The notes below the pieces were generated by a model, which did not search any database, had not been told where the DNA came from, and saw only the letters and a program-made list of their open reading frames with translations. Shown here piece by piece: positions 20,978 to 26,193 of a stretch of 39,416 nucleotides of DNA (position 1 is its first letter; every line of letters begins with the position of its first letter). Source of the DNA: Devosia sp. (GTDB lineage Bacteria; Pseudomonadota; Alphaproteobacteria; Rhizobiales; Devosiaceae); assembly GCA_015657675.1 (NCBI GenBank), contig JACDQI010000209.1:1-39416 (forward strand), given 5' to 3'. Position numbers and translations under genes: made by a program.

Positions 20978-22234
20978 TCAGCGCTTCTTGGCCCGTGCAA
21001 ACGGCTCTGCCGCGTCGTCGAACACCGTTCGGCCGCCATAGTCCGGTGATCGACGCCATTCCTCCGCGACGTAGGACTTCAAGCTCGGTCCCGTCGCGGT
21101 CTTTTCCAGCTGACGCGACTGGCTGTCGAGGCGCTTGAGGGCGTCGGCTTGTTCGCTCTGACCCAGGCGGGCTTTCACCACGGCATATTTCAGCACCTTG
21201 ATGGTCTCGTCGTAGACCTTCAGTGGCACGGGGAAGGGGGCGCCGTCCTTGCCGCCATGGGCCATGGCGAAACGGGCAGGGTCGGCGAAGCGATGCGGGG
21301 CGCCGTGGATGACCTCCGCCACTTGCGCCAGGGACTGCACGGTGCGGGCGCCGATCCCGGGGACCAGCAACAGCTCGGCGAAATCTCGCGGTGCCTGCTC
21401 TTCAGCGGCGGCCAGGGCGCCGTGCAGGCGGCGCATCATCACATCCTTTTCGCGGATATCATGGTGCGCTGGCATGACGAGGTGCGGCAGCAGGCTCATT
21501 TGCGCCGGGGGCTCGACCGGCCTTTTGGGCTGCAGATCGATCAACTGATCGACGATCCCGTCCGGCCCGAGACTGGCGAGCAGGTCGACCTGTGCCTTGC
21601 GCGACCGTTCCGCCCGCTTGTCGGTGAGATTGATGATCTCGCCTTCAGCCTCTCCTTCGATGGCGGCGTGGGGCGCGTCGACGAAGCTTTCGAGCCCCTC
21701 TGAGGTCCAGTGGTACCGGCGGGCGGTGCTCGAAGCGTTTCGCATGCCCTGCTGGACCACCACCCAGTGTCCGTCGGCGGCGACGATGAAGCCGTGGAGG
21801 TAAAGGTCGAACCCGTCCTGAACGGCCGCGCTGTCAACCTTGGCGACGAGCCGGCTGGCCTGGGCCAGTGCCGCCCCATCGAAACCGACCCGGTAGCCGA
21901 TGCTAACGAGTTCCCCCGGAGTCTTGCGAGAATGCCGGCCGCGTCCGCCGCAGACAAACAGACCCAGTTCGCGCTCCATCGGCTGCAGACCGCGCTTTAG
22001 GGCGCCGATGACGCTGGTGGTGATGCCGGAGGAGTGCCAGTCCATCCCCATCACGGCGCCGAAAGACTGGAACCAGAACGGGTTCGCCAGACGTCGGAGC
22101 AGTTCGTCGCGGCCGTATTCCTGGACGATCGCCTCGCAGATCACCCCGCCCAGCTTGGCCATACGCTCGGCCAGCCAGGCCGGTACGCGTCCGCCATGCA
22201 GGGGCAGGTCGGCGCTTCCGGATCGTTGAGCCAT
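20978..22234 (-). CDS. DUF763 domain-containing protein
   Basis: 418 residues from the preferred ATG at 22234, which follows AAGGGGCG on the minus strand; the track adds 16 residues. The protein begins QRSGSADLPLHGGRVPAWL, the hallmark of the DUF763 family (RSGTADLPLHGG-type opening), then GMDWHSSGITTSVIGALKRG, LGLFVCGGRGRHSRKTP, and DGFDLYLHGFIVA. Near residue 300 VPGIGARTVQSLAQ is a helix-hairpin-helix-like motif, suggesting nucleic-acid binding. DUF763 proteins occur in archaea and scattered bacteria with no proven function. Its position is odd: it interrupts ftsA-ftsZ on the opposite strand, with zero bases between its stop and that of ftsA (CTGATCAG). Base composition looks like its neighbours, so transfer is not obvious. 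Confidence 0.9.
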   Translation of the reverse strand: MAQRSGSADLPLHGGRVPAWLAERMAKLGGVICEAIVQEYGRDELLRRLANPFWFQSFGAVMGMDWHSSGITTSVIGALKRGLQPMERELGLFVCGGRGRHSRKTPGELVSIGYRVGFDGAALAQASRLVAKVDSAAVQDGFDLYLHGFIVAADGHWVVVQQGMRNASSTARRYHWTSEGLESFVDAPHAAIEGEAEGEIINLTDKRAERSRKAQVDLLASLGPDGIVDQLIDLQPKRPVEPPAQMSLLPHLVMPAHHDIREKDVMMRRLHGALAAAEEQAPRDFAELLLVPGIGARTVQSLAQVAEVIHGAPHRFADPARFAMAHGGKDGAPFPVPLKVYDETIKVLKYAVVKARLGQSEQADALKRLDSQSRQLEKTATGPSLKSYVAEEWRRSPDYGGRTVFDDAAEPFARAKKR

Positions 22235-22539
22235 CGATTGCACGCCCCTTGTGTCGATCTGGAACATATCAGGAACGAACAAAAGTGTGAAGCGTCCTGG
22301 AACAGATTGCCGACCGGGCGAGTCGTGTGAATGGGCTTCGCTGCTGCCGATTTGATGAGTCGCGGCCGTGCTTTAGCGGAGGAACTTGCAGTTGCCGACC
22401 ATGCTTAACAGGCCCTTTCAAGTGCCCTGAGCCGTCTTGCAAATTGCGTCGCCGTTAACGAAATCGACGGCTTTGTTAGGAGTGGGTTAACGAATTGGCG
22501 ACTAAAACTTAGTCAACACGCCACTCATGGGGCCTCTAC
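22235..22539. promoter_or_regulatory. Divergent DUF763/ftsZ upstream region with TTAAC and GANTC motifs
   Basis: A 305-nt region without a gene. GTTAACGAA occurs as a direct repeat at 22454-22462 and 22486-22494, 32 bp apart (about three helical turns); a third TTAAC lies at 22405-22409. Two GANTC sites (GAGTC) are at 22320-22324 and 22357-22361. In alphaproteobacteria TTAAC is the half-site of the cell-cycle regulator CtrA and GANTC is methylated by CcrM; both are known to influence ftsZ in Caulobacter. Their role here is inference, and no full TTAA-N7-TTAA site is seen in this stretch. Confidence 0.45.
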
Positions 22540-24204
22540 ATGACGATCAATCTCACGATCCCAGACATCCAGGAACTGAAGCCGCGCATCACCGTCTTTG
22601 GTGTGGGCGGTGCTGGCGGCAACGCCGTCAACAACATGATCAACTCCGGTCTGGATGGCGTCGACTTCGTGGTCGCCAATACCGACGCTCAGGCGTTGGC
22701 GCTGTCGAGCGCGCAGCGGATCATCCAGCTGGGTGTCTCGGTCACCGAGGGTCTTGGTGCTGGCTCGCATCCTGAGGTCGGCAAGGCTGCCGCCGAAGAG
22801 AGCTGGGATGAGATCAATGACCATCTCTCCGGCTCGCACATGGTGTTCATCACTGCCGGCATGGGTGGCGGTACCGGTACAGGTGCAGCCCCGGTTATTG
22901 CGCGAGCCGCGCGGGAGCAGGGGATCCTGACTGTTGGCGTGGTGACCAAGCCGTTCCAGTTTGAAGGCAACCGTCGTGGGCGTTTGGCCGAAGACGGCAT
23001 CGATGAACTGCATCGCCATGTCGACACTCTGATCGTCATTCCGAACCAGAACCTCTTCCGGGTTGCGAACGAGAAGACCACCTTTGCGGACGCATTCAAG
23101 ATGGCGGACCAGGTGCTGTATTCGGGTGTGGCCTGCATTACCGACCTGATGGTCAAGGAAGGTCTGATCAATCTCGATTTCGCCGACGTGCGCGCCGTGA
23201 TGCGCGGCATGGGCAAGGCGATGATGGGTACAGGCGAAGCCTCGGGCGAAGATCGTGCCCGTCATGCGGCAGAAGCCGCAATTGCCAATCCGCTGCTCGA
23301 CGACGTGTCGATGCATGGCGCCCGCGGCCTGCTGATCTCGATCACCGGCGGCCCGGACCTGACGCTCTACGAAGTCGACGAGGCAGCCAGCCGCATCCGC
23401 GAGGAAGTCGACCCGGATGCCAACATCATCCTGGGCGCGACGTTCGATCCGAACATGAATGGCTCGATCCGCGTCTCGGTGGTCGCCACCGGCACGGACG
23501 CCACCATGGTGCAGGCGCTCGAGCCGATGAAGTCGAATGGCACGCGTGCCCCGCTGCAGGCGCAGCAGATTCGCCGTGCCATGCCCGAGTTGGCGCCGCA
23601 GCTGCAGGTCGAAATGCAGCAGCCGGCACCGATGCCGGCGCCTGAACCGCTCGAATCGCAGGTGCAGCAGGCCGTGGCGGAAGCCATCCAGGAGCCGACC
23701 TACGCCAGCTACCAGGACGACGACGGCGTGACGGTGGAGCCCTATATCCCCGCTGCTGCGCACAACATCATCGAAGAGGGCATGCGGGCCCCCGAGGCGC
23801 CGATTCCCAGCGTCTATGTGCCTTCGAGCGCCGAGCGTCCTGATGGTCAGCGGCGGATGCCGCGCACCGAGGAACTGCCGGTTGTTGCAAGACGGTCACT
23901 CGGTGCACAAGAAAAGCATGAACCCGAGCCGCGCAATGCGCGTGCCCTGTTCAAGCGCCTGGCCTCCAATGTCGGTAACGCGCTGCGTCCCACCGATAGC
24001 GTGGGTCGCGACGAGACCACCTATACCAGTGCCGACGACGCTGCTGCGCGTAGTGCCATAGAGGCCGGTGCGCCTAGGGTTTCCCATGCTCCGCAGCCGA
24101 CTCAGGGTGCTTCCGGATCGCTCGACAAGCTCGGTCGTGAGCCCGCTGTCGCCCCGCAGAAAGAGCATATCGAGATCCCGTCATTCCTGCGCAAGCACGG
24201 TTAG
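22540..24204 (+). CDS. ftsZ: Cell division GTPase FtsZ
   Basis: 554 residues, tubulin-like GTPase forming the Z ring. N-terminal [21 protein letters not shown] signature [13 protein letters not shown] near residues 107-119, [10 protein letters not shown], and the T7-loop region [13 protein letters not shown]. The GTPase core ends near 320. A long Pro/Gln/Ala-rich linker of about 220 residues follows, and the final [11 protein letters not shown] is the conserved C-terminal peptide of alphaproteobacterial FtsZ that binds FtsA and other partners. The long linker is normal for Hyphomicrobiales. Unlike in most genomes it is separated from ftsA by an antisense gene and so needs its own promoter. 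A terminator follows. Confidence 0.97.
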
Positions 24205-24313: not shown

Positions 24314-25269
24314 ATGCAGAAGCTTTCGGCGCGGCAGCGCACCCTCGCACGTGCGCTCGAATTCAGCGGTTTTGGTGTCCACAGCGGATTGCCTGTTACC
24401 CTGACGATCGAGCCTGCCCCCGCCGACAGTGGATACCTGATTGCCCGCAAGCTGGAGAGCGGCGTTACCGTCGGCCCGGTAGCGGTGCATTTTTCCCGCG
24501 TTACCCGCACGACTCTCTGCACCACACTCGACCTGGGCGACAGCGTCTCGGTCGCGACGTGGAGCACGTCATTTCGGCACTGTCCGGCATGGGCGTCGAC
24601 AATGCTCTCATCACGCTGACCGGAGCCGAGTGTCCGATTCTCGATGGCAGTGCCTCGCCCTACGTGCAGGGCATCATGGAAGCCGGTCTCGATGTGCAGC
24701 CGGCGCCGCGCCGCTACATCAAGATCATGCGCCAGGTGCTGGTGCGCAACAATGAGGCTTCGGCCGCGCTCGAGCCCTATAACGGCCGTATGCTCGACCT
24801 CGAGATCGATTTCGACAGCCGCGTCATCGGCCGTCAGCGGATGATCTTTGACTGGACGCCGCGCAAGTACTGCGAGGATGTGTCGCGGGCCCGCACGTTT
24901 GGCTTTGTGCGCGATGCCAAGATCCTGCGCCAGGCGGGCTATGCGCTGGGCTCGTCGCTCGACAACTCCATCACCGTGCACGAAGACCGCATCCTCAATC
25001 CGGGCGGCCTGCGCTACGAAGACGAGTTCGTCCGCCACAAGCTGCTGGACGCGATCGGTGATCTGGCGCTTTGCGGCCTGCCGATCTATGGCCGTTTCCG
25101 CTCCTATAAGGGCGGCCACGCCCTGAACGCCCTCGTCTTGCATGGGCTGTTTGCGAGCGAAGCCAACTATGAGATAGTGACGGCCGAAGAACTGCCGTTG
25201 GCGTTCGATGCGCTCGATGACGTGCCCGAAGGGCTCGAAGTTCGGCCCTACCTTCGCTCTGTTGGCTGA
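24314..25269 (+). pseudogene. lpxC: UDP-3-O-acyl-N-acetylglucosamine deacetylase, split by a -1 frameshift
   Basis: The zinc deacetylase of the committed step of lipid A synthesis, here in two frames. Part one (ATG 24314, after TTTGGAG) gives ALEFSGFGVHSGLPVTLTI through LDLGDSVSVAT. Part two resumes in another frame at 24559 with VEHVISALSGMGVDNALI and runs to 25269 through HKLLDAIGDLAL and SYKGGHALN. Inserting one base in GCGACGTGGAG near 24557-24559 would give the family text VATVEHVISAL and one ORF of 318 residues, the normal length (about 300-320). The break hits VEH, whose His is a zinc ligand. No slippery heptamer is visible. In a lipid A-making bacterium the gene is essential, so a sequence error is likelier than a true pseudogene. 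The ORF track lists the parts as 24299-24619 and 24559-25269. Confidence 0.93.
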
Positions 25270-25353
25270 TCGCCGCTCTGCAGCCACAGTTTTGATCGTT
25301 TTTGTCAGTAGTCGGCTTGTCCGCAGGCGGCGTGTAACGTGACGGGGCTTTTC

Positions 25354-26193
25354 GTGAATACCAACAGATCTATGGGTTCGTTCAGCCGGGTTGCCCGGAT
25401 CGCGGCAATCGGCCTCTTGGCCGTTACGCTCGCCGGTTGCGACATGTTTGGCGCGCCCAAGGTCAAGGAAGAGACCATCATCCCGCCCGAAACGCTCTAT
25501 GCGGCGGCGATCAAGGATATGGACAACCAGCGCTACGTTACGGCGGTGGCCAATCTCGAAAAGCTCGAACGTCAGCATCCCTACTCGGACTACACCGAGA
25601 AGGCCAAGCTGATGCAGGTCTATGGCAATTATCGCGTCGGCAAGTTCGACGAGGCGATTCTGGCTGCCGACCGCTACGTCGCGCTCTATCCGACCAACAA
25701 GGAAGTGCCTTACGTCCTCTATCTCAAGGGCAACGCCTATTTTGCCCAGATCAAGGACATCACGCGCGACCAGCAGATTTCCAAGGATGCGATCGACACC
25801 TATACGCTGCTGATCGCCAACTATCCCAAGAGCGAGTACGCCAAGGACGCCAAGGAGAAGATCCTGGTTGCCTACGACCAGATGGCCGGCAAGGAGATGT
25901 CCGTCGGCCGCTACTACCTGGGCAATGGCCAGTATGCCGCAGCGATCAACCGCTTCCAGGCTGTTACCGAGCAGTTCCAGACCTCGACCCATATCGAGGA
26001 GGCGCTGTACCGCCTGACCGAGGCGAATCTCGCGCTTGGCCTTGTTGGCGAGGCCCAGACGGCTGCCGCGGTGCTAGGTCACAACTACCCGGCCAGCTCC
26101 TGGTACAAGCAAGCCGTCACACTGCTGCAAAAGCAGGGTCTGGCGCCGCAGATGAACGAAGGCAGCAAGCTGGCTACCCTGAAGAGGGGCTGA
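25354..26193 (+). CDS. bamD: Outer membrane assembly lipoprotein BamD
   Basis: 279 residues from GTG 25354 (after GGGG, 6-nt spacing); GTG 25339 and ATG 25372 are alternatives. Lipoprotein of the BAM complex. Signal peptide RVARIAAIGLLAVT ends in the lipobox LAGC with the lipidated Cys at residue 29. The mature part is a chain of TPR helices: PETLYAAAIKDMDNQRYVTA, RQHPYSDYTEKAKLMQ, RYVALYPTNKEVPYVLYLKG, and GRYYLGNGQYAAAINRF, typical of BamD/YfiO. It stands 84 nt after lpxC with no terminator seen between them, and before recN. Confidence 0.94.
   Translation: MNTNRSMGSFSRVARIAAIGLLAVTLAGCDMFGAPKVKEETIIPPETLYAAAIKDMDNQRYVTAVANLEKLERQHPYSDYTEKAKLMQVYGNYRVGKFDEAILAADRYVALYPTNKEVPYVLYLKGNAYFAQIKDITRDQQISKDAIDTYTLLIANYPKSEYAKDAKEKILVAYDQMAGKEMSVGRYYLGNGQYAAAINRFQAVTEQFQTSTHIEEALYRLTEANLALGLVGEAQTAAAVLGHNYPASSWYKQAVTLLQKQGLAPQMNEGSKLATLKRG

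Follow-up and report, generated by a model that had tools for sequence, protein, structure and literature searches.

A one-base break at the zinc-binding motif of lpxC in a Devosia-group draft genome: very probably a sequence error rather than a loss of lipid A synthesis

Has a Devosia-group bacterium broken lpxC at its zinc-binding motif, or has its draft genome dropped a base which the organism itself still carries? The question arises from a window of 39,416 nucleotides, the whole of the stretch analysed here, which is contig C9 of a fragmented 3.94-Mb draft of 317 contigs (completeness ~85% and contamination 4.9%, both estimates). The short contigs C26, C32, C33 and C35 (L144, L150, L151 and L153) consist entirely of N, and part of the draft is thus unsearchable. 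The closest homologues of the window belong to Devosia and to uncultured Hyphomicrobiales, and the contig holds a cell-division and wall cluster which runs from an ftsI-to-ftsW stretch through murG/murC, ftsA and ftsZ to lpxC, bamD, recN and ligA. Here, ftsW, ftsA, ftsZ, bamD, recN and ligA match NCBIfam models, and some of the other names are based on gene order and the position of homologues, with no profile. Between ftsA and ftsZ, on the opposite strand, lies a DUF763 gene (PF05559, 409 bits; 20978-22282, minus strand), whose homologues we found neither in the lpxC regions of the relatives nor in the portion of the same-genus genome G017 that was sampled.

The gene in question takes up 318 codons (24314-25269), directly 3' of ftsZ and 5' of bamD, and is laid out as follows:

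22540-24204, plus strand: ftsZ, intact, upstream neighbour of lpxC
24314-24556, plus strand: lpxC 5' piece, 81 codons in the frame of the ATG at 24314, covering PF03331 positions 1-67
24556-24559, plus strand: net loss of one base relative to all relatives, the exact base not being placeable
24556-25269, plus strand: lpxC 3' piece, 237 codons and a stop, with the VEH zinc-binding motif at its start, covering PF03331 positions 69-267
25339-26193, plus strand: bamD, intact, downstream neighbour of lpxC

From the ATG at 24314, the first frame (frame A) gives 81 LpxC residues ending in ...DLGDSVSVA, and then, no longer in the LpxC frame, reads on until a stop at 24617. A second frame, from 24556, encodes DVEHVISALSGMGVDN... 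(DVEHVISAL) and closes with the stop at 25267-25269; the junction itself reads GCGACGTGGAGCAC, and the missing base does not fall within a long homopolymer. The sequence as given therefore holds no single continuous reading frame for lpxC, and the PF03331 family profile is matched in two parts, split over the two adjacent frames. Both parts are nonetheless recognisable: the 5' piece is 79-89% identical to its closest Devosia homologues and the 3' piece 90-92% identical to its own, the latter alone scoring 229 bits against TIGR00325, where the cut-off is 187.

A first-pass annotation, made from the sequence alone, had described this lpxC as broken by a one-base deletion at the VEH motif and had proposed that its repair would give an LpxC of 318 residues. 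The comparison with close relatives which it recommended bears out both statements, as the lengths of the two pieces sum to 318 residues and DNA alignments spanning 24556-24559 place exactly one extra base in each relative. When the two pieces were searched for separately, they lay in one frame in 97/97 relative loci, a tally in which some genomes are counted twice. In its position between ftsZ and bamD, its length of 318, its VEH motif and its freedom from decay, the gene is a typical Devosia LpxC (PF03331, TIGR00325); it departs from these in having one base fewer at 24556-24559, and hence two frames in place of one. The same-genus draft G012, which is listed as 99% complete, is without a match to LpxC, FtsZ or BamD, and its assembly either lacks the region or has it in unreadable form; we considered G012 as a case of parallel loss of lpxC and rejected this on the grounds that the ftsZ and bamD matches are absent too.

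Could the two frames be read as they stand? They overlap from 24559 to 24619 and there is a GTG at the switch, as might be expected of programmed -1 frameshifting, or of a two-piece LpxC produced by reinitiation at GTG 24559. However, no in-frame heptamer of the form XXXYYYZ occurs from 24314 to the stop of frame A, in agreement with the earlier remark that no slippery site is visible, and the arrangement is found in 0/97 relative loci; with the heptamer absent and the arrangement not conserved, we reject a programmed -1 frameshift. As for reinitiation, by eye no Shine-Dalgarno-like sequence precedes GTG 24559, the product would miss the first ~82 residues, and an LpxC in two pieces would have its first 81 residues parted from the metal-binding histidine motif. 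Taken together, we regard recoding or reinitiation as scarcely credible.

Breaks of this kind are not confined to lpxC. We screened 662 kb of the draft against codon-usage-selected genes from 1.5 Mb of G017, scoring as a frameshift any change of frame within one homologous protein. Under relaxed criteria, 11/128 conserved genes of the draft (8.6%) are frameshifted, lpxC included, although some of these, where the sequences diverge, may be something other than real one-base indels. In the relatives' loci, the control value is 6/628 gene comparisons (1.0%; Fisher p = 1e-5 against 11/128), a background rate which may be understated, the loci being centred on conserved division genes. This is the excess of similar indels within the same assembly that an artefact would be expected to bring. 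The reciprocal test, in which the draft's genes were compared with G017 as a single reference genome, gave only two apparent frameshifts, both from ORFs antisense to draft genes already counted as broken. With strict criteria the figures are 9/128 for the draft, 4/628 for the relatives' loci and 0/133 for the reciprocal comparison. The strict version misses lpxC itself owing to an overlapping gapped alignment, and it was after this that the criteria were relaxed, in the same way for the controls; the excess stands under both. In 7/9 of the strict-criteria genes the net change is -1, as it is in lpxC. Amongst the broken genes are metH, thrC, a citramalate-synthase-like gene, an ABC exporter, a LacI-type regulator and atpA, the last with several indels near a contig end. 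The other conserved genes tested in the window contig are intact, and this contig is not an unusually bad one.

So many frameshifts, over so many contigs, might also be the mark of a decaying genome in which pseudogenisation is recent and widespread and lpxC is but one of many real pseudogenes; indeed, 'Candidatus Devosia symbiotica' (L090) is among the relatives. Yet atpA and lpxC are among the broken genes, and a free-living cell should require both; almost every break amounts to a net change of one base, the genome, with 3.9 Mb at 85% completeness, is of normal size for its group, and lpxC is without decay. We therefore hold such pseudogenisation to be highly improbable. A free-living cell in which so many genes of this sort were broken is hard to envisage, and this favours consensus error.

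Had lpxC been lost long ago, its sequence should by now have drifted. When compared with the closest homologues, both pieces give a dN of 0.04-0.18 and a dS of 0.65-1.5, i.e. a dN/dS of ~0.05-0.25 in each, which denotes strong purifying selection, and we found no further lesion in the gene besides the frame switch. As selection is not relaxed (dN/dS is not near 1), an old lpxC pseudogene is ruled out; a very recent one would be compatible with these values.

The rest of the lipid A pathway bears on whether a loss would extend beyond lpxC. The first-pass annotation had asked whether the genome holds a second lpxC, as well as lpxA and lpxD. Neither the PF03331 profile nor a DNA search recovers a second lpxC from the 3.94-Mb draft. 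The genes lpxD, lpxA and lpxB lie together on contig C238 and lptD lies on contig C87, all in open frames with no stops, and we reject a general loss of lipid A synthesis on this basis. What would be left is a real, recent loss-of-function mutation in the sampled strain, the strain then either lacking lipid A or forming part of a mixed population. The single copy of lpxC is compatible with this, and lipid A is conditionally dispensable, under special conditions, in the alphaproteobacterium Caulobacter (PMC10964400). Nevertheless, the open frames of the remaining lipid A genes and of the LptD gene tested count against such a mutation, as do the absence of decay in either lpxC piece and the many comparable breaks in the assembly, atpA and metH among them; furthermore, a consensus sequence such as this draft would show the mutation only if most or all of the population carried it. 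We consider it very unlikely, with no result here in its favour. Its stricter form, in which a free-living Devosia has truly fixed the loss of lpxC alone, making no lipid A whilst keeping the rest of the pathway, is most doubtful. Few Gram-negatives are known to manage without lipid A, among them lipid-A-deficient mutants of Acinetobacter baumannii and Caulobacter crescentus; if true, the lesion would add to these few.

The organism, then, very probably has an ordinary, intact lpxC, and the one-base loss would be an error of the contig. In the deposited sequence a base would have gone missing at 24556-24559, whether in sequencing, in the consensus or in assembly, as one of many indel errors in a fragmented draft. 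We infer an error rather than a mutation as the source of the missing base because of the assembly-wide excess of frameshifts, the absence of decay, the unbroken frames of lpxA, lpxB, lpxD and lptD and the lack of a second copy, and in this we come to the same preference as the first-pass annotation. Coincidence is the simplest account of why the break lies on the zinc-binding VEH motif. The pattern resembles the indel artefacts of draft and metagenome assemblies, i.e. isolated, mostly one-base shifts over many conserved genes of a single assembly. Considering that ~1 in 12 of its conserved genes appears frameshifted, no single broken gene from this draft should be taken as biology without read support.

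Two complete chromosomes among the relatives, those of Devosia algicola G20-9 (L039) and D. rhodophyticola G2-5 (L040), both appear frameshifted in ftsZ and recN, and there, too, the breaks have the look of consensus error.
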